The position numbers and the translations under genes are program-made. The notes under the pieces are model-generated. The model was not told the DNA's origin. It did no database searches and saw only the letters and a list, made by a program, of their open reading frames with translations. DNA of 64,000 bases from Herbaspirillum sp. SJZ107 (GTDB lineage Bacteria; Pseudomonadota; Gammaproteobacteria; Burkholderiales; Burkholderiaceae_D), in assembly GCF_006715485.1 (NCBI RefSeq), contig NZ_VFNH01000001.1:1054001-1118000 (forward strand), written 5' to 3'. Shown piece after piece: positions 52,335 to 61,204 of this stretch (positions are counted from its first letter, which is position 1; every line of letters begins with the position of its first letter).

Positions 52335-53348
52335 TCAGCGATGCTGGGCCAGCTCCGCCGGCGCCACCGTCGACGGCGTCGGCAGGGGCGGCTTGACTGC
52401 CTGGGCGGCCTGGCGCGCAGCGCTGCCGTTGGCGCAGAAGCGGTTCTTGCCGGCGCGCTTGGCTTCGTACAGTGCGTAATCCGCAATGCTGATCAGCTCG
52501 GATACCGTTTCGGCATCGTCCGGGTACATGCTGATGCCGATACTGGTCGACAGCTGCAGCGTCAGGTCGTTGATGAAGTAGGGCTCGGACAAGGCCTCGA
52601 CCAGCTTGGCGGCCGGTCCCTGCGCATCGGCCAGGCTGTGCACATCGCCGAGCACGACCATGAATTCATCGCCGCCCAGACGCGATACCGTGTCTTCCTT
52701 GCGCGAATTGGCCAGCAGGCGCTGCGACACCAGTTTCAGGATCTCGTCGCCATAAGCGTGGCCATAGGTATCGTTGATGGCCTTGAACCCGTCCAGGTCC
52801 AGGTACATCACCGCTGCCTTGTGGTGGTTGCGGTTGGCGTGCTGCAGCGCGGTTTCGATGCGGTCTTCCAGCAGGCGGCGGTTCGGCAGGCCGGTGAGGG
52901 CGTCATGCAGTGCCAGTTCCTGCTGGGCGCGGCTGTACTGGGCGAGCTCTTTATACAGCAGGCGCACTTCGAGCATGTTATGGATGCGCTTGTGCACTTC
53001 CAGCAAGTCAAACGGCTTGCTGATGAAATCGCGCGCACCGGCTTCGAGTGCGGCGATCTTGAAACTGGGCTGGGCGGTCAGGGCCAGAACGGGCAGGTAA
53101 CCACCCTGTTCAATTTCCTTCAGACCCTTCATGACCTGGAACCCGTTCAGGCCCGGCATCTGCAGGTCCAGCAGGATCAGGTCGTAATTATGCTCCCGGT
53201 GCAGCGGACAGACCTGTTCCGGCAGCATCGTGGAACTTACGTCGGCGTAGCCTTCCTCCCGCAATATCTCTTCCATCAATTCGATATTGTCCGGCGAATC
53301 GTCCACCACCAGGATTTTGGCGTTTAAAATGTCTTGTCGGCTCGGCAT
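52335..53348 (-). CDS. REC-GGDEF response regulator, diguanylate cyclase
   Basis: 337 residues. REC (~10-125) with VVDDSPDNIELM, phospho-Asp in ILLDLQMPG, LTA and SKPF (Lys). GGDEF domain (~150-305) has intact RLGGDEF, plus the inhibitory I-site RKED five residues upstream of it, so product inhibition by c-di-GMP is likely. A Pro/Ala-rich tail follows. PleD/WspR-like: phosphorylation should activate c-di-GMP synthesis. ATG 53348 is chosen because the open frame upstream starts only at a TTG. The cognate kinase may be one of the hybrid kinases nearby. Confidence 0.94.
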   Translation of the reverse strand: MPSRQDILNAKILVVDDSPDNIELMEEILREEGYADVSSTMLPEQVCPLHREHNYDLILLDLQMPGLNGFQVMKGLKEIEQGGYLPVLALTAQPSFKIAALEAGARDFISKPFDLLEVHKRIHNMLEVRLLYKELAQYSRAQQELALHDALTGLPNRRLLEDRIETALQHANRNHHKAAVMYLDLDGFKAINDTYGHAYGDEILKLVSQRLLANSRKEDTVSRLGGDEFMVVLGDVHSLADAQGPAAKLVEALSEPYFINDLTLQLSTSIGISMYPDDAETVSELISIADYALYEAKRAGKNRFCANGSAARQAAQAVKPPLPTPSTVAPAELAQHR

Positions 53349-53490
53349 GCGTACTCTCGTGAAATCAAGGTCGGCATCGTTCAATATCTTACATCGATGC
53401 CAACTCAGCGCAACATAAGTAGTCTAGCAAATCACCAAGAATTTCTTGTAGGACAGCATCTCGTGCGGGGGTAGGAGCAGCAGGCTAGCT

Positions 53491-56472
53491 TCAGCGCATG
53501 CTGTTCCGTCCCATCGCCGGCGAGGCCGGACGGTTGACCATCGGCGCTGCCGGACCCACGACCGACGCCACCGTCGCAATCAGTTCGCTCGGTTCCACCG
53601 GTTTCGAAATATGCGCCGAGAACCCCGACTCCAGCGCGCGCAGCCGGTCTTCCGAACGCGCAAAGGCCGTCAGCGCGATCGCCGGCACCTGGCTGCCCTG
53701 GGCGCGCGGCAGCTGCCGCACCCAGTCCAGCAATTCGAAACCGTCGACTTCGGGCATGCCGAGGTCGCTGATCAGCAATTGCGGCGGCGCTTCGGTGAAC
53801 AGGGCGATGGCATCGCGCGCACTGGCGGCAATGCGCACGGTGGCGCCGCAATCGTTCAGGATCCGCTTGATCAGTTCGCGTGCATCGCGGTCGTCGTCGA
53901 CCACCAGCGCATCGACGCCGCTCAGGTCGAGCACCGTCATTTCCGGCGTGCTCGGCGTCGGCAGGATCATCGCGGCGCGCGCCGAGCGCGGGGCAGGGGC
54001 CTGCTGCTTGGCCAGCGGCAGTTCGATGGTGAAGCTGGCGCCCTGGCCTTCGCCGCCGCTCTCCGCGCGTACGGTGCCGCCATGTTGCTCGATCAATTGC
54101 TTGACGATGGCCAGGCCGAGGCCGAGGCCGCCGTGGCGGCGCGTCATCGAGGCATCCGCCTGGCGGAAGCGCTCGAACACGTGGGTGATGAATTCGGGCT
54201 TGATGCCGGCACCGTTGTCGCGCACGGTGATCAGGACGCTGGTGTCGCTGCGGCTGAGGTCGATGTCGACCTGGCCGTCGCGCGGCGTGAACTTGATCGC
54301 GTTGGACAGCAGGTTCCATACCACCTGCTGCAGGCGCGCCGGGTCGCCGGCCACCATGCCGGGTTCCATGGCGTAGTGCTTCTCGATGCGGATGTTCTTG
54401 GCATCGGCAGCCGGGCGCACGGTTTCCACGGCGGCGTCGATGAAGCCGGCCGGTGCCACCGTCTGCATGTCGAGCAGCACCTTGCCGGAGGTAATGCGGC
54501 TCATGTCGAGCAGGTCTTCGATCAGCTGGGCCTGGGAACGCGCATTGCGCTCGATGGTCTGGAGGCCGCGCTGCAGGTCGTTCTGGTCGCGGCTGCCACG
54601 GCGCAGCACCTGGGCCCAGCCCAGGATCGCCGACAGCGGCGTGCGCAGCTCGTGCGACAGCGTGGCCAGGAATTCATCCTTCATGTTGCTGACGCGTTCG
54701 GCCTCGGCGCGTGCCAGGCGTTCGTTTTCCAGCAGTACCTTGCGCTCTTCGGCGGCGCGCTGGGCCGCTTCGTACAGGCGCGCATTGTCGATCGCGACGG
54801 CGGCCTGGGCCGCGATGCCGCGCACGATGCGTTCGGTGCGCTCGCTGAACACGCCCGGCTCGGGGTGGCCGAAGAACATGGTGCCGAGCGCTTCGCCGGA
54901 ATGGGCGACGACCGGCACCGCCAGGTAGCTGCGCAGCGGCGGATGGGCGTTCGGCAACGACTGGAAGCGGGCGTCGAACAGGATGTCGTCGGACCGGACT
55001 ACACCCTGGCCGGCGATGCCGGGCGTGAACAGGCCGCTGGTGCCGGGTTCGCCGAAGGCCTCGAATTCGGCCGGGCTGGCGCTGGACACCGTGAACAGCG
55101 AGAACAGGTTGCCGCTGCTGCCATGTTCCTGGGGGTGGTACAGGAAGGCGCCGTGGCGCGCGCCGGCAATGTGGGTGGCGGCATCGGTGACCGCCTGCAG
55201 CAGCGAGCGCAGGTCGCGCGTCGAGGCCAGCGTGGTGCCGGTGCTGTTGAGCAGCTCGAGCACGTGCGATTCGTCGCGCAGCGCCTGCTCGGCGCGCTTG
55301 ACCTGGTCGACGTCGGTGTTGGTGCCGAACCAGCGCACCACGTGGCCGTCGCGGTCGCGCACCGCGTTGCCGCGGGTCAGGAACCAGCGGTACTTGCCGT
55401 CGACGCCGCGGATCGGGAATTCCATCTCGAACGGCTCGCCGGACTTCAGTGAGGCGCTCCAGCGCTCCATCACGGCCGGCAGCACGCTCGGCTCGCAGGT
55501 CTCTTGCCAGCCCCAGCCGACTACCTGGTCGGGCGTGGTGCCGGTGTAGTCGAACCAGCGCTCGTTGAACCAGACCATGGCGCCGTCGGCCTGCGCCATC
55601 CAGGCCAGCTGCGGAATCGTGTTGGCCAGTGCGCGCAGCACTTCCTCGCTCTGGCGCAGCGTGTCTTCGGCGCCGCGGCGGGCGCTGATGTCCTGCACCA
55701 CGCCGGTCATGCCGAGCAGGCCCTGGCGCCGGGCCGGGTCGGCATAGTGGGCGCGTCCGACCAGCGCCACCCAGCGCGCCTGGCCGGCGGCATCGAGCAG
55801 GCGGCATTCGAGTTCGAGGTCGCCGCCGCTGGCGAAGGCATGCGAGACCGCGCGGCGCACGCCTTCGCGTTCCTGCGGTTCGAGGCGGGCTCGCAGCTCG
55901 CTCCACAGCAGCGGCGTGTCCGCCGTCAGGCCGAGGATGGCGGCGGCGCGCTCGCCCAGCAGCACGCGGTCGCTGGCGGCGTCCCAGCGCCAGTCGCCCA
56001 GGCCGCCGGCGGCCAGTGCCACCTGCAGGCGGTTATTGCCCAGCTGCAGGGCTTGCTGGTCGGCCTTGCGCCGGTTGATGTCCTGGAAGTACAGGGTCAG
56101 GCCGTCGGGCGTCGGATGGGCGCGCACTTCGAACCAGCGCTTCAGCGCCGGGTAGAAGAATTCCTGGATCGCACTCGCGCGCGTGGCCATCGCCTGGCGG
56201 TAGACGCCTTCGAGCTGGCTGCCGCGCAATTCGGGGAAGGCATCCCAGAGCGAACTGCCGACCAAACTGGTGCGGGTTCTCTGCAGCGGTGCCAGCATTT
56301 CCAGTGCACGCCCGTTGATATAAGTGATGCGCCACTCGTGGTCGACTGCACAGAAGCCGTCGCTCAGGCTCTCGAGCATGTTTTCCATGCGCTCGGTGGC
56401 GCGGTGCAGCGCCGCGCGCGTGGCAAGCAATTCCTGCGCCGCGCCGTCGAGGTCCTCGTGCTCCTTGCTCAC
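53491..56472 (-). CDS. Multi-PAS hybrid histidine kinase (PAS-PAS-PAS-GAF-HisKA-HATPase-REC)
   Basis: 993 residues, no predicted membrane helices. Three PAS domains (~25-130, 140-270, 285-400; the third contains MVWFNERWFDYTGTTPDQV), GAF (~405-575, ending AQAAVAIDNARLYEAAQRAAEER), HisKA with TLSHELRTPLSAILGW near 620, HATPase (NLLSNAIKFTP, GGLGLGLAIVKQLIEQHG) and C-terminal REC (~855-970, VVDDDRDARELI, LISDLGMPEVDGFEL). Soluble sensor, probably for redox or small ligands. GTG start preceded by AAGGGGG. Confidence 0.92.
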   Translation of the reverse strand: MSKEHEDLDGAAQELLATRAALHRATERMENMLESLSDGFCAVDHEWRITYINGRALEMLAPLQRTRTSLVGSSLWDAFPELRGSQLEGVYRQAMATRASAIQEFFYPALKRWFEVRAHPTPDGLTLYFQDINRRKADQQALQLGNNRLQVALAAGGLGDWRWDAASDRVLLGERAAAILGLTADTPLLWSELRARLEPQEREGVRRAVSHAFASGGDLELECRLLDAAGQARWVALVGRAHYADPARRQGLLGMTGVVQDISARRGAEDTLRQSEEVLRALANTIPQLAWMAQADGAMVWFNERWFDYTGTTPDQVVGWGWQETCEPSVLPAVMERWSASLKSGEPFEMEFPIRGVDGKYRWFLTRGNAVRDRDGHVVRWFGTNTDVDQVKRAEQALRDESHVLELLNSTGTTLASTRDLRSLLQAVTDAATHIAGARHGAFLYHPQEHGSSGNLFSLFTVSSASPAEFEAFGEPGTSGLFTPGIAGQGVVRSDDILFDARFQSLPNAHPPLRSYLAVPVVAHSGEALGTMFFGHPEPGVFSERTERIVRGIAAQAAVAIDNARLYEAAQRAAEERKVLLENERLARAEAERVSNMKDEFLATLSHELRTPLSAILGWAQVLRRGSRDQNDLQRGLQTIERNARSQAQLIEDLLDMSRITSGKVLLDMQTVAPAGFIDAAVETVRPAADAKNIRIEKHYAMEPGMVAGDPARLQQVVWNLLSNAIKFTPRDGQVDIDLSRSDTSVLITVRDNGAGIKPEFITHVFERFRQADASMTRRHGGLGLGLAIVKQLIEQHGGTVRAESGGEGQGASFTIELPLAKQQAPAPRSARAAMILPTPSTPEMTVLDLSGVDALVVDDDRDARELIKRILNDCGATVRIAASARDAIALFTEAPPQLLISDLGMPEVDGFELLDWVRQLPRAQGSQVPAIALTAFARSEDRLRALESGFSAHISKPVEPSELIATVASVVGPAAPMVNRPASPAMGRNSMR

Positions 56473-56714: not shown

Positions 56715-57551
56715 TCAAGCGCGGCCCGGCAGTGCGCTGGCGACCTGGTCCAGTGCCTGTTGCAACTGGTCGAGTTCGTACGGTTTCTGCAGCGAGAGAT
56801 ACGGGAATTCGACGTGGCGCAGCAGCGTGTCGCCGTAGCCGGAAGCGAAGATCACGCGGATGCCCGGCGCATCGGCGACCGCGCGCCGGGCCAGGTCGAC
56901 GCCGGACATGCCGGGCAGGCTGACGTCGGTGAACAGCACGTCGTAGCGGTTGGCGGCAAGGCGGTCGAGCGCATCGTTCGGATGGCCGACGCCGTCGGCT
57001 TCGTGGCCGAAGGCGCGCAGCATCTCGCACACCAGGTATTGCGAGTCGAGGTTGTCTTCGACTACCAGGATGTTCAGCGGACCGGCCGCGGCGCTGTCCT
57101 GCGGCATCGACAGCGCGGGCTCGGCCGCAGCCACGGCGCACAGCACGCCATCGACCGCGCCGCTGGCGCCGCGCACCGGGGTGAAATGCAGATCGTAGAC
57201 GCCACCGGCATCGGCGCTGCCGAAACCGAGGTTGCGCTCGGCAGCCAGCGCCGCTTCGCCCTGCCAGGCCCGTCCGAGTTCGGCAGATGCGGCGGCCAGC
57301 GGCGGCGGCATCACCGGCGGCACGCTGCCGCCAGGCAGTTTGCCGTACGCCGGTCCGGCCAGGTCGGCATAGGCCTGATTGAACAGCACCGTCATGTCGC
57401 GGCCCCAGACCAGCAGCATCGGCAGCGGCGTATTGAACAGCAGGTCGGCTGCGAGGCGCAGCGCGGGCGGCCAGGCATCGGGCGTGCCCAGCCGGGACGC
57501 GGACCAGTCGAACGAACTCGAGGAAATGGCGGACTTACCGGAAGCTGACAT
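56715..57551 (-). CDS. PAS-REC response regulator
   Basis: 278 residues. The N-terminal half (~1-140) is a PAS-like domain that starts like the input of hybrid kinases (FDWSASRLGTPDAWPPALR, then MLLVWGRDMTVLFNQAY). The C-terminal REC (~160-270) has VVEDNLDSQYLVCEM, phospho-Asp in LFTDVSLPGMSGVD and SLQKPYEL. No kinase or output domain, so it looks like a kinase from which the catalytic core has been lost, or a stand-alone sensor/sink regulator. It precedes the large hybrid kinase in the same orientation (242-base gap). Confidence 0.88.
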   Translation of the reverse strand: MSASGKSAISSSSFDWSASRLGTPDAWPPALRLAADLLFNTPLPMLLVWGRDMTVLFNQAYADLAGPAYGKLPGGSVPPVMPPPLAAASAELGRAWQGEAALAAERNLGFGSADAGGVYDLHFTPVRGASGAVDGVLCAVAAAEPALSMPQDSAAAGPLNILVVEDNLDSQYLVCEMLRAFGHEADGVGHPNDALDRLAANRYDVLFTDVSLPGMSGVDLARRAVADAPGIRVIFASGYGDTLLRHVEFPYLSLQKPYELDQLQQALDQVASALPGRA

Positions 57552-57939
57552 GGCGGGTTATAAATATTGTTATCGTTACAAAAAGAGGATGCATCGTACA
57601 CTAAAAGCGATGACGAGGGCGGCACGTATGGACTGTGTGGCAGGCAGTCGACACCCATGCGTGGTTGCAAATTTGCAACGAGGTATGTCACAGATTTTGC
57701 GGCACAGCATGCGTGTTGCACAGCACACGCGTCAGAAGGGCAAGCAGAACCGCAGCGCAAAAAAAAGCCCGCTACGGGAGCGGGCTGAATCTATCCTTGG
57801 AGGAGAATAGAGGAGACAGGTTCATAATGCTGCATCGCAAAAAACAAATCCAATTTAGATTTCCAATGACCGTTATTGGTTTCTTAAATGGCACGACTGC
57901 AGCCTAGTATCGTGGAGCACCCTTGGTGCACTGAAGAAA
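57552..57939. other. Intergenic stretch holding a candidate sRNA
   Basis: 388 bases between the PAS-REC gene and the YfiR gene. Holds the small-RNA candidate listed separately (57760-57823) and a dyad GCACC-CTTG-GTGC-like at 57916-57929. The plus-strand frame of ~26 codons at 57827 (MLHRKKQIQF) has a GGAG-rich upstream sequence but looks more like the complement of the sRNA. Confidence 0.45.
57760..57823 (-). ncRNA. Candidate small RNA with anti-Shine-Dalgarno motifs
   Basis: Reading minus strand: possible promoter -35 TTGGAT (57853-57848), 18-base spacer, -10 CATTAT (57829-57824); then a single-stranded stretch with CTCCTC twice (CTGTCTCCTCTATTCTCCTC), then a terminator stem GCCCGCT/AGCGGGC at 57785-57767 followed by eight Ts. 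About 58 nt in all. The repeated CUCCUC could pair with ribosome binding sites. The short promoter match is modest; no homologue checked. Confidence 0.4.
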
Positions 57940-58632
57940 ATGTTCTACGATAGCAAAATGTCTAAAAATGTTACGCGCCCCTGCGCGTTCCCTGCCATTG
58001 TGTCTGTGCTGCGGCGGCGAGCCGGTGGCCAGGCATGGGCGTGGTGCGCTGCGCTGTACGCCATCCTGGGCGCCGCCGCCATTGCCGCGCCGCCCGCGCA
58101 TGCGCAACATGCCGCTGTCGGTAATGGCGCGACGATCAATAGCAACACCAATGGCAACGGCAGCGCGCTCGAGCGCCGCGTCAAGGCCGCTTTCCTGTAT
58201 AAGTTTCTCGGCTATGCCGAGTTTCCGCCCGGCGCCTTCTTCGATGGCAGCAGTCCAGTCGTCATCGGCGTGGTCGGTGCCGACGATCTGGCGGGGGAAC
58301 TGGTGCGCCTGGTGGCCGGACGCACCGTCAACAGCCGTCCGGTAGTCGTGCGCGTGCTGCGCGACACCGACGTGCAAGTCCCCCTGCACCTGCTGTTTGT
58401 CGGTGGCGCCGATCCGCTCCGCGTCGGCCGCATGGTGCGCCAGGCCAGCGCCGCCATGCTGGTCGTCACCGAGTGCGAGGATGGGTTGCGGCAAGGCAGT
58501 GTGATTAATTTCCGTATCATTGATGAGCGCGTGCGTTTCGATGTCTCGCTCGATGCTGCGGAGCGCAATGGTATCAAGCTCAGTTCGCGCCTGTTGACGG
58601 TCGCGAACCGGGTGCAGAAAGGAGTGCAGTGA
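57940..58632 (+). CDS. yfiR: YfiR family periplasmic protein (DUF4154)
   Basis: 230 residues. A signal sequence lies within the first ~58 residues (AILGAAAIAAPPAHAQ). The mature domain matches YfiR: LERRVKAAFLYKFLGYAEFPPGAF, VIGVVGADDLAGELVRLV, HLLFVGGADPLRVGRMVRQ and the terminal RFDVSLDAAERNGIKLSSRLLTVA. YfiR in Pseudomonas binds the periplasmic CHASE8 of the YfiN cyclase and holds it off. Here the stop overlaps the start of a CHASE8-HAMP histidine kinase by 4 bases (ATGA), implying a paired partner of a different output class. Start could be ATG 57940 or 57958. Confidence 0.88.
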   Translation: MFYDSKMSKNVTRPCAFPAIVSVLRRRAGGQAWAWCAALYAILGAAAIAAPPAHAQHAAVGNGATINSNTNGNGSALERRVKAAFLYKFLGYAEFPPGAFFDGSSPVVIGVVGADDLAGELVRLVAGRTVNSRPVVVRVLRDTDVQVPLHLLFVGGADPLRVGRMVRQASAAMLVVTECEDGLRQGSVINFRIIDERVRFDVSLDAAERNGIKLSSRLLTVANRVQKGVQ

Positions 58633-60596
58633 TGAGGGCGCCCAAGGAAGCGGACAAGGCAGACAGCGTGAACGAGGCAGGCGTGGGCGAAGACGCGATC
58701 ATGCAGGGCAATGCGCGCGACAGCGGCACCGTCCGCAGCAAGCTGATCCTGATGGCGGTGTCGACCACCTTCGTGGCCCTGCTGGCGGCGGCACTGGCGA
58801 TGCTGGTGGTCGACCTGCGCGCCTTCCAGCGCTACTGGACCGATGATCTGGTCACCCAGGCCGACATCGTGGCGCGCGTGACCGCGCCGGCACTGGCCTT
58901 CAACGACAGCGAAACCGCACGCCAGAACCTGGCCGTGCTGAGAGTCCGTCCGCAGATCCTGGCCGCCGCCATCTATAACAATGCAGGCGTGCGCTTTGCC
59001 AGCTACGAAGCGGTCCCCGGCCAGCATTTCCCGGCGCGCGCCGAAAACGCCGGCTACCGCATCGAAGGCGGCGAAGTGGTGGTATTCCGCAATATCGTCG
59101 AAAACGGCGAGCTGGTCGGCAGCGTGTACGTGCGTTCGCGCTACGGCCTGGTCGAGCGCCTGCTCAGCTATGGTGCGATTTTGGGCGCGGTGATGCTGGG
59201 CGCACTCGTCATTGCCGGGCTGGTGGCGTCGCGCCTGCAGGCCGCGATCACCCGTCCGCTCGAGGCGGTGACCAACGTGGCGCGCCAGGTGATGCAGCGG
59301 CGCGACTTCACCCTGCGCGTGCCGGGCAACGAGCGCGGCGAGATCGGCGTGCTGATCGAAGCCTTCAACGACATGCTGGCCGAGATCGGGCGCCGTTCGC
59401 ACGCGCTGCAGGAATCCAACGCCACGCTGGAACACGAGATGCAGGTGCGCCAGCGCGCCGAAGGGGCCTTGCTGGTGGCCGACCGCCGCAAGGACGAATT
59501 CCTGGCCACGCTGGCGCACGAGCTGCGCAACCCGCTGGCGCCGATCCGCACCGGTCTCGACATCCTGCGCTTGCGCAGCGGCGACGCCCAGGCCACCCAG
59601 CGCGCCACCGACATCATGGAACGCCAGCTGCGCCAGATGGTGCGCCTGGTCGACGATCTGCTCGACGTATCGCGCATCAATACCGGCAAGTTCACGATCA
59701 AGACCGGCCGCGTGGAGCTGAAGGCGGTCGTCAACGACGCCCTGGAAGTGGTGCGGCCCTATATCGAGCTGCACGGCCACGAACTGGTGATCGACCTGCC
59801 GGACCGCCCGGTGTTCCTGCACGGTGACGCCACCCGCCTGGCGCAGATCCTGTCGAACCTGTTGAACAACGCCGCCAAGTACACCAACCGCGGCGGCCGT
59901 GTCAGCCTGAAGGCGACGGTCGAGGAACGCACCCTGGTGCTGGTCGTGGCCGACACCGGCATCGGCATCGCGCCCGACATGCTGGACACCGTGTTCGACA
60001 TGTTCGTGCAAGTCGATTCGACGCTGGAGCGCTCGAATGCCGGCCTGGGCGTCGGCCTGTCGCTGGCGCGCAAGCTGGTCGAGCTGCATGGCGGCGCTAT
60101 CGAAGCCCACAGCGCCGGCCTCGGCCACGGCAGCCAGTTCGTGGTGCGCCTGCCGATCGTGGTCGATCCGGAATTGCCGGCAAAACCGACCCCGGCCGCC
60201 TTCATCAGCGCCGAGACCTACCGCATCCTGCTGGCCGACGACAACGTCGACTTCGTCAACAGCATCGGCGCGCTGCTCACGGCGATGGGCCACAGCGTGG
60301 TGATCACGCACAATGGTCCGGACGCGCTGGCCGCCGCCAAGCGCTTCTACCCGGACTACGCCTTCCTGGACATCGGCCTGCCGAAGATGTCGGGCTACGA
60401 CCTGGCGCGCGCGATCCGGGCGCTGCCGACGGGGGCGATGACGGTGATGATCGCCGTGACCGGCTGGGGCCAGGAAAAGGATCGCCAGCTGGCCTTCGAA
60501 GCCGGCTTCGACCACCACATGGTGAAACCGGTGCGCTTCGAGCAGATCGAGGAAATCCTCGGCAACCGCAGCATCATCAAGAAGCTGCGCACGTAA
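58629..60596 (+). CDS. CHASE8-HAMP hybrid histidine kinase
   Basis: 655 residues. TM1 ~38-62; periplasmic CHASE8 (~63-175) with the family pattern LVTQADIVARVTAPALAF and FASYEAVPG; TM2 ~179-200; HAMP ~201-255; HisKA with TLAHELRNPLAPI (H297); HATPase (LSNLLNNAAKYT, GLGVGLSLARKL); REC (~535-650, LLADDNVDFVNSIGALL, FLDIGLPKMSGYD). In YfiN the same CHASE8-HAMP is joined to a GGDEF domain; here it drives a histidine kinase. The gene is coupled to yfiR by ATGA. Expected to transmit envelope or redox stress through phosphotransfer. Confidence 0.93.
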   Translation: MMRAPKEADKADSVNEAGVGEDAIMQGNARDSGTVRSKLILMAVSTTFVALLAAALAMLVVDLRAFQRYWTDDLVTQADIVARVTAPALAFNDSETARQNLAVLRVRPQILAAAIYNNAGVRFASYEAVPGQHFPARAENAGYRIEGGEVVVFRNIVENGELVGSVYVRSRYGLVERLLSYGAILGAVMLGALVIAGLVASRLQAAITRPLEAVTNVARQVMQRRDFTLRVPGNERGEIGVLIEAFNDMLAEIGRRSHALQESNATLEHEMQVRQRAEGALLVADRRKDEFLATLAHELRNPLAPIRTGLDILRLRSGDAQATQRATDIMERQLRQMVRLVDDLLDVSRINTGKFTIKTGRVELKAVVNDALEVVRPYIELHGHELVIDLPDRPVFLHGDATRLAQILSNLLNNAAKYTNRGGRVSLKATVEERTLVLVVADTGIGIAPDMLDTVFDMFVQVDSTLERSNAGLGVGLSLARKLVELHGGAIEAHSAGLGHGSQFVVRLPIVVDPELPAKPTPAAFISAETYRILLADDNVDFVNSIGALLTAMGHSVVITHNGPDALAAAKRFYPDYAFLDIGLPKMSGYDLARAIRALPTGAMTVMIAVTGWGQEKDRQLAFEAGFDHHMVKPVRFEQIEEILGNRSIIKKLRT

Positions 60597-60643: not shown

Positions 60644-61204
60644 TCAGGCCTGTTTGCCCCCCTTGCGGCGCCGCGCCAGGAAGCCCAGCACGCCCAGGCC
60701 GCCCAGCATCAAGCCGTAGGTTTCCGGCTCCGGCACCGGTGTCGTCAACGCCACCGCGCCGCCGAAGGCCGCGGACCCGGATGAGTTCAGGTTACCGCTG
60801 ACCTGCAGGTAATAATTGCCGGCGTCGAGGCCCGTGCTGGTGAGGGTCCAGACGTCGATCGCGCCGGACTGCAGCGCGGTGCCCGTCGTCACCAGGGTAT
60901 TGCCGGTAGCGCTGTAGAGCGACAGGGCGGTGATGTCGAGGCCGGTCTCGGTTGCGCCGGTGATCGACGAGACGATGGCGTTCACCGTGGTGCCGGGCGA
61001 ACCTTCCTGCGCGGTCGGCACGGCAAAGGTGAAGCGGTCGGCAAAGCTGGCGCCGCCGTTGTTTTGGGCAAATGCATCGCCAAAGAAGCCGCTGGTGCCG
61101 ACCAGGTCCAATGCCTGTGAGCCGCTCCCGATGTTCTGGGCCATGGCGGAAGAACCGAACGACGCAACAGCAACTACGGCAGCAGCAATCAGGGATCTCT
61201 TCAT
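60644..61204 (-). CDS. FxDxF PEP-CTERM protein
   Basis: 186 residues. Signal peptide 1-22 (cleavage after SAMA), a beta-rich middle with ASFADRFTFAV (the FxDxF motif), and a C-terminal sorting tail VPEPETYGLMLGGLGVLGFLARRRK: the VPEP motif, a hydrophobic span and Arg cluster. Such proteins are recognised by exosortase and released to the exopolysaccharide; no exosortase gene is in the window. Function of the mature domain unknown. Confidence 0.9.
   Translation of the reverse strand: MKRSLIAAAVVAVASFGSSAMAQNIGSGSQALDLVGTSGFFGDAFAQNNGGASFADRFTFAVPTAQEGSPGTTVNAIVSSITGATETGLDITALSLYSATGNTLVTTGTALQSGAIDVWTLTSTGLDAGNYYLQVSGNLNSSGSAAFGGAVALTTPVPEPETYGLMLGGLGVLGFLARRRKGGKQA

Follow-up and report, generated by a model that had tools for sequence, protein, structure and literature searches.

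What does a YfiR-like periplasmic protein control when the membrane protein encoded beside it carries a YfiN-like CHASE8-HAMP sensor on a histidine kinase and receiver rather than on a GGDEF domain? This question is raised by a gene pair in a 64,000-nucleotide stretch of the Herbaspirillum sp. SJZ107 genome (NZ_VFNH01000001.1, positions 1,054,001 to 1,118,000; hereafter the window), in which a sequence-only reading had seen a YfiR switch that may act on a phosphorelay instead of on cyclic di-GMP (c-di-GMP) synthesis. We conclude that the pair belongs, as a derived member, to an already known envelope signalling system of three parts, the third of which, a TonB-dependent receptor, has apparently been lost from the window operon. 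YfiR probably binds the CHASE8 domain of the overlapping kinase and sets kinase activity as YfiR does for YfiN, having formerly done so under an outer-membrane receptor. The argument draws on these features of the window:

57958-58632, plus strand: gene for the YfiR-like periplasmic protein (TOL_0243 family); alternative starts at 57940 (the sequence-only call) and GTG 58000
58632-60596, plus strand: gene for the hybrid sensor histidine kinase, CHASE8-HAMP-HisKA-HATPase-REC; other possible start GTG 58629
58629-58634, plus strand: stop/start overlap GTGATG coupling yfiR and the kinase gene, read directly from the sequence
58887-58901, plus strand: kinase residues 86-90, PALAF, counterpart of the YfiN AAVVF motif and proposed YfiR-binding stretch
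57917-57967, plus strand: block that relatives with a receptor conserve ahead of the start of the TonB receptor gene; in the window it immediately precedes yfiR
57967-58165, plus strand: junction where receptor-bearing relatives hold a TonB-receptor gene of about 2 kb; here the interval encodes a linker and what looks by eye like the signal peptide of YfiR

The YfiR reading frame as called (57940-58632) matches Pfam DUF4154 (PF13689) at E 6.8e-32 and 111 bits versus 24.9, and the mature domain begins at about 58165. The ATG at 57940 is the less likely start because it lies inside a block that is also conserved before the receptor gene in receptor-bearing relatives; judged by eye, ATG 57958 (224 aa) or GTG 58000 is more likely. 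The kinase matches CHASE8 (PF17152; E 1.4e-15, 57.8 bits versus 27), HAMP (3.5e-9), HisKA (1.7e-16), HATPase_c (9.8e-26) and Response_reg (5.5e-18). It has two hydrophobic stretches, at about residues 36-66 and 176-202, and its residues look intact, including H296 (in AHELRNP) and D580 of the receiver, which we take to be the catalytic residues. The overlap with yfiR that the sequence-only reading put at 4 bases is real: it spans 4 bases if the kinase gene starts at GTG 58629 and a single base if it starts at the in-frame ATG 58632, which has AGGAG 7 nt ahead of it. A start codon stands at the GTG and/or ATG overlap position in all 78 loci with both genes among 80 named loci; these are the best 80 of 168 relatives, found with the closer alignment of YfiR and so biased to Oxalobacteraceae. 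Within this set the nearest sequence to the window YfiR, at 98%, comes from a Burkholderiaceae metagenome-assembled genome, followed by Massilia and Telluria (74-80%); judged by these relatives, the host is a Massilia.

Curated family models place both proteins in a named system. With NF053591, the model titled "TOL_0243 family YfiR-like periplasmic protein", the window YfiR reaches 190.6 bits, well over the cut-off of 125; with the canonical YfiR model NF053586 it reaches 22.1 bits, below the cut-off of 85. The kinase reaches 298.2 bits, the cut-off being 194, with NF053592 ("sensor histidine kinase, YfiR-like protein-associated"), so that the window holds, side by side, the YfiR-like and kinase genes of the TOL_0244/TOL_0243/kinase system.

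Structure models agree with this placement. When the AlphaFold2 model of the window YfiR (predicted local distance difference test, pLDDT, 93.4) is compared with the PDB, chains of P. aeruginosa YfiR, by itself or with YfiB, fill the first 15 places, and substrate-binding proteins (5z6v, 3lft) rank below them. The CHASE8-HAMP model of the kinase (pLDDT 85.3) resembles the extracytoplasmic PAS domains of CitA and WalK; its top match is an integrative WalK-YycH model (Z 14.9), and it superposes on CitA 2v9a_B over 95 residues (Z 12.8, root-mean-square deviation 2.1), a likeness of shared fold only. CitA is the template used for the YfiN PAS domain in the account of Malone et al. 2012 (PMC3375315), and hhalign aligns the CHASE8-HAMP region with that of 16 YfiN-type GGDEF proteins at probability 99.6. 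The sequence-only reading held that the kinase has the same CHASE8-HAMP sensor as YfiN and named a CHASE8 unlike YfiN's in fold as what would count against it; the likeness was found, by sequence profile and shared template, with no solved YfiN periplasmic domain among the matches listed. Homology of the YfiR and CHASE8 parts to the YfiR/YfiN sensory pair is thus supported by profiles and predicted structures.

The usual third component of YfiR-kinase pairs is a TonB-dependent receptor, not YfiB. We surveyed the pair's output domains in other genomes, as the sequence-only reading had proposed, by searching 398 genomes of the phylum, which are related to one another, with the TOL_0243 model; it matched at E 1e-5 in 93 of them (118 places) and exceeded its cut-off in 24. 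The counts that follow describe this sample, the 116 places outside the window's own genome, annotated by local profiles. The partner of YfiR is a CHASE8 kinase in 61 places and a CHASE8-GGDEF protein in 28; the other 27, with other or undeterminable partners, include six YfiR-kinase fusions, two loci with the CHASE8 kinase before yfiR, contig-end loci and receptor-only loci. A same-strand TonB-dependent receptor gene lies within 3.5 kb in 47/61 kinase loci and 9/28 GGDEF loci, and an equally near receptor on the opposite strand was seen in 4 of the 116 places. A YfiB-like OmpA gene lies within 4 kb in 0/61 kinase loci versus 15/28 GGDEF loci, by a profile grown from one Pseudomonas-like YfiB that may miss distant YfiB, and receptor and YfiB never occur together (0/116). 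Among the 72 places with a receptor, 70 had a reading frame longer than 500 aa to scan, and these carry the Plug domain in 70/70 and the barrel in 59/70 at E 0.001. The receptor family is that of TOL_0244 (NF053590), with 3 of 6 receptors tested over the cut-off. In 12 of the 61 kinase loci (for example L106, L108, L109 and L111) the receptor gene comes right after the kinase, and none stands directly before yfiR.

Within the window's own GTDB family, 46 of 145 genomes hold a kinase over the NF053592 cut-off, in 66 places. In 56 of these yfiR is directly upstream, 55 by coordinates, compared across 141 genomes, and one outside those 141 (G144, locus L268) on reading. The remaining ten comprise nine kinases followed directly by a REC-GGDEF-EAL-REC gene (L038, L269-L276) and one (L267) with neither neighbour. 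One family locus (L282) holds two receptors and two yfiR genes, and another (L280) runs receptor, YfiR and REC-GGDEF-EAL-REC without a kinase.

At the window locus this receptor is absent. Open reading frames, blastn blocks and tblastn with 50 receptor reading frames all place no receptor gene in the operon; we rejected a receptor relic, as the tblastn search returned only leader and start-region matches. By blastn, the segment 57757-57967 lines up with the sequence that leads into, and covers the start of, the receptor gene in relatives, and the alignment resumes with yfiR from about 58165. The conserved block at 57917-57967 is promoter-like by eye only, and a consensus scan of 57500-58200 called no promoter. 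After the kinase the next reading frame is convergent (60644-61204), and no window reading frame matches the local OmpA/YfiB profile at E 0.01. The sequence-only reading was therefore right that no YfiB-like gene follows, and missed the TonB receptor as the usual third part.

Receptor presence is patchy across Massilia. On a tree of YfiR plus kinase with 79 rows (the window and 78 loci; L248 and L258, with a receptor and no kinase found, are omitted), a receptor lies directly upstream of yfiR in 47 of 77 judgeable rows, while 30, the window included, have none and two are undecidable. Its presence changes ten times, nine of them forced by well-supported branches, on a tree made by a quick method with five long rows flagged. 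The window clade of 15 rows retains the pair, with a receptor in 0/13 judgeable rows. The tree itself does not give the direction of change; loss is the simpler reading because outlying rows carry the receptor, as do most of the phylum's kinase loci, and the receptor has thus apparently been lost repeatedly. Three of 41 genus genomes (G541, G556 and G573) have one in-frame stop in their best, presumably operon-type, receptor match, as if loss were ongoing.

The pair itself has not relaxed. Median ratios of nonsynonymous to synonymous substitution (dN/dS; Nei-Gojobori, overlapping pairs, six rows omitted and the two undecidable rows counted as receptor-less) for YfiR are 0.354 in receptor-less lineages (430 pairs) and 0.348 in receptor-bearing ones (898 pairs). 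The corresponding values are 0.424 versus 0.476 for CHASE8, 0.165 versus 0.312 for HisKA-HATPase and 0.101 versus 0.245 for the receiver. As dN/dS is not raised in receptor-less lineages, the pair is still maintained by purifying selection.

A receptor encoded elsewhere may act in trans. The window's genome encodes a stand-alone TOL_0244 receptor (C2:99878-101749; 848.9 bits, cut-off 645, and 45% to the operon receptor of a relative, which also exceeds the NF053590 cut-off), with no yfiR found in the surrounding 14 kb. A second yfiR (C1:244429) lies between a TonB receptor and a CHASE8-GGDEF-EAL gene (C1:242.5-247 kb; L037:3553-7953, minus strand).

Co-variation suggests that receptor, YfiR and CHASE8 form one sensory unit set on exchangeable outputs, by a small margin of correlation. 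At the 44 receptor loci, raw distance correlations are 0.45-0.62 among YfiR, CHASE8 and receptor, and 0.24-0.41 with HATPase. The partial Mantel correlation of YfiR with CHASE8 given HATPase is 0.51 (n=59; two of the 61 loci have no HATPase match), whereas that of CHASE8 with HATPase given YfiR, on the same chain, is 0.24. The receptor and HATPase show partial correlations of 0.08 given YfiR and 0.05 given CHASE8, neither significant (n=44).

The proposed contact residues are widely kept. Malone et al. propose that YfiR covers the Phe of the AAVVF stretch in the YfiN PAS domain (PMC3375315), and the corresponding Phe (Phe90 of PALAF in the window) is kept by every partner in the phylum set, 61/61 kinases and 28/28 GGDEF proteins alike, and by 78/78 named kinases. 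The counterpart of YfiR F162 is kept in the window, in 78/78 named YfiR and in 22/28 GGDEF-type YfiR of the phylum. We read the Phe conservation as support for a common fold, not as proof of binding.

On these grounds we propose that the periplasmic YfiR-like protein would dock on the PAS-like CHASE8 domain of the hybrid kinase and tune its activity. In the window lineage the receptor gene would have left the operon and the YfiR-kinase pair been kept, so that a signal would now be sensed by YfiR or CHASE8 itself, or through a receptor encoded elsewhere, such as that at C2:99878. Phosphate would leave through the kinase's own receiver, probably by way of a separate histidine phosphotransfer (HPt) protein, and would reach a response regulator, perhaps a c-di-GMP enzyme. 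The data themselves establish what the genes are and their homology, the conserved pairing, the association with a patchily present receptor, selection on the pair and the co-variation; the binding, the sign of control, the signal, the relay partner and the loss rather than gain of the receptor are all parts that we infer.

Several observations weigh against this proposal. The motif Phe is kept equally in 9/9 sister kinases that have no neighbouring yfiR, so it does not discriminate and fails as a marker of YfiR-dependence, and the F162 counterpart occurs in only 49/61 kinase-type YfiR of the phylum. All four YfiR disulfide cysteines (C71-C110, C145-C152) are absent from the window protein, where their counterparts are G, L, L and N. 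With CHASE8 accounted for, a correlation between YfiR and HATPase persists (0.19, p 0.001; 0.22 at n=44), and that of YfiR with the receptor, again given CHASE8 (0.19, p 0.006), is about as large. The Mantel and Fisher tests ignore shared ancestry, and joint transfer of the receptor, yfiR and kinase genes would give the same pattern of correlation. Six single-chain YfiR-kinase fusions, confirmed by Pfam (L150, L160, L164, L166, L168 and L179), have no CHASE8 match, so YfiR can serve a kinase by another geometry. Additionally, six family loci (L277, L278, L279, L281, L282 and L283) hold receptor and YfiR with no CHASE8 gene found. Finally, YfiR could activate the kinase rather than inhibit it.

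In the fusions a YfiR domain at the N terminus is joined to a histidine kinase, and by eye the chain also has a membrane segment and a long stretch resembling a coiled coil; in-frame YfiR-CHASE8 fusions were found neither among the 116 phylum loci nor among the 80 named loci. The C145-C152 pair is present in 0/61 kinase-type YfiR, in 16/19 GGDEF-type YfiR without an upstream receptor and in 0/9 with one; the C71-C110 pair is present in 37/61 kinase-type, 28/28 GGDEF-type and 0/78 named relatives. Because all four cysteines are absent from the window protein, a redox component of the YfiR mechanism, if there is one, cannot apply to it, and we set aside redox sensing by the YfiR of this lineage.

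Candidates for the output of the kinase come from its surroundings. The window's reading-frame list shows no regulator gene behind the kinase on the same strand, and three neighbours lie on the other side of yfiR:

56715-57551, minus strand: divergent PAS-REC gene (Pfam), a syntenic neighbour; a REC gene lies on the minus strand on this side in many Massilia loci
53491-56472, minus strand: second hybrid histidine kinase gene, PAS-GAF-HisKA-HATPase-REC, a syntenic neighbour
52335-53384, minus strand: divergent REC-GGDEF response regulator gene, the nearest diguanylate cyclase found in 52-64 kb

The PAS-REC gene is a possible partner of the kinase, and the REC-GGDEF gene is the nearest candidate output in the window; a REC-GGDEF gene on the minus strand was seen in 22 of the 80 named loci, the rest being cut off by the 7-kb flank or not showing one. 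Between the PAS-REC gene and yfiR, the minus strand at 57759-57818 matches Rfam RF02278 (Betaproteobacteria_toxic_sRNA; 67.4 bits, gathering 50), a stretch kept across 20 aligned loci with the receptor present or absent.

Several sister loci have c-di-GMP enzymes at their end. In the same genome (C2:285.5-290.3 kb; L038:4509-9262), a CHASE8 hybrid kinase without yfiR overlaps a REC-PAS-GGDEF-EAL-REC regulator gene and scores 289.5 bits against NF053592; a like arrangement occurs in eight other genomes (L269-L276). REC-GGDEF-EAL genes thus lie directly after nine sister kinases, and also at L268 and L285, with L268-L276 and L285 being among 20 unpaired places picked on purpose. In the phylum set, the gene directly after the kinase is REC-GGDEF or GGDEF in 5/61, a REC gene of unexamined output in 8/61 and none recognised in 28/61, by profiling that left out EAL, HD-GYP and DNA-binding outputs in all 116 loci. 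We therefore consider c-di-GMP a plausible output of the window kinase. The kinase output that the sequence-only reading had in mind is present, but its "instead of" c-di-GMP was too strong, given the nine sister kinases followed by REC-GGDEF-EAL-REC. A further protein of the genome, 978 aa long, matches the CHASE8-kinase profile in split form (C1:703.3-704.0 kb; L039:3120-6056, minus strand), and the genome search found no yfiR nearby.

Of the alternatives, the one that survives best is that YfiR is a ligand-binding co-sensor sitting permanently on CHASE8, as LuxP does on LuxQ, with the receptor importing or presenting a small molecule instead of sequestering YfiR. Selection on YfiR is not relaxed where the receptor is absent, which fits a YfiR with a sensing role of its own, the direct YfiR-kinase fusions fit a sensor-domain role, and the window YfiR model matches substrate-binding proteins as well as YfiR. 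P. aeruginosa YfiR is described as holding vitamin B6 or L-Trp in a surface pocket, with closest structural homologues that bind small molecules, but the affinities given in the same accounts are weak, in the ten-millimolar range (PMC4887326, PMC4655355). In the window, alignments show the pocket residues only partly kept (I169 is replaced by A and P178 by S), and we regard this alternative as unlikely.

A second alternative is that the window YfiR serves other CHASE8 proteins in trans, chiefly the C2 kinase coupled to REC-PAS-GGDEF-EAL-REC, so that its output would be c-di-GMP turnover. The C2 kinase exceeds the family cut-off, keeps the Phe motif and has its regulator directly behind it, and one relative (L268) still has YfiR, kinase and regulator in a row. 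However, yfiR overlaps or abuts its own kinase gene in the 78 relatives with both genes, which argues for a partner in cis and leaves service in trans decidedly improbable. That the pair is a relic decaying after receptor loss, as the repeated receptor changes on the tree and the in-frame receptor stops might suggest, is a very remote prospect given the dN/dS values, the intact reading frames, overlap and kinase residues in the window, and a whole clade that keeps the pair without the receptor.

Returning to YfiR as the regulator of its overlapping kinase, we tentatively suggest, without regarding it as the probable case, a broader generalization. A widespread route may run from TonB receptor through a YfiR-like protein to a CHASE8 kinase or GGDEF protein, separate from the FecR/FpvR anti-sigma route, with the sensory half evolving as one unit and its outputs exchanged; in Massilia the receptor would have been dropped repeatedly, leaving the pair alone or with a receptor in trans. 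If the receptor-YfiR-kinase reading is true, a single small protein of the periplasm carries information in many bacteria from outer-membrane TonB receptors to a phosphorelay in the cytoplasm, and YfiR has two upstream partners, of which YfiB is just one. The patchy receptor of Massilia offers a natural test, as the same pair occurs with and without it and the receptor's contribution can be compared directly.

Parts of this picture are already published. Malone et al. 2012 (PMC3375315) describe divergent yfi operons, almost all without yfiB, in which GGDEF is often replaced by GGDEF-EAL, HPT or sensor histidine kinases; they give Thauera as an example with a hybrid kinase and regard the YfiR-YfiN[PAS] core, as a proposal, as modular, and TonB is not mentioned in the main text of the paper. 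The idea of YfiR with a kinase output is therefore already covered, its general pattern having appeared in 2012 (PMC3375315) and the trio being curated by name in NCBIfam. Two things are new here: the receptor is patchy and has apparently been lost repeatedly with the pair kept, and receptor and YfiB are mutually exclusive in this sample. In the open-access literature, by titles and abstract openings, we found no experimental paper on a TonB receptor acting with YfiR and a kinase. The only functional hint for the trio, as given in one report (PMC6304351), is that TOL_0244 of Thalassolituus oleivorans is sevenfold up on n-C28 alkane versus Tween 80; it is 40.3% similar to OmpS of Alcanivorax dieselolei, which is cited there as essential for alkane detection.

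Set beside these known systems, the window pair resembles YfiBNR of Pseudomonas aeruginosa in having a DUF4154 protein of YfiR fold beside a CHASE8-HAMP membrane protein, with the AAVVF-type Phe and the F162 counterpart kept. It differs in its HisKA-HATPase-REC output rather than GGDEF, in lacking YfiB and the YfiR disulfide cysteines, and in falling short of NF053586. The divergent YfiN-YfiR systems described in 2012, for example that of Thauera sp. MZ1T (PMC3375315), are similar in that a YfiR homologue goes with a (hybrid) kinase bearing a YfiN-like sensor, mostly with no YfiB; to these the window adds a lineage whose operon has no receptor. TOL_0244, which resembles OmpS, gives its name to the receptor family of the Massilia system, the alkane response being one described for those other organisms. 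Of the NCBIfam trio NF053590/NF053591/NF053592, the window YfiR and kinase exceed both of their cut-offs, and the receptor gene is absent from the operon.

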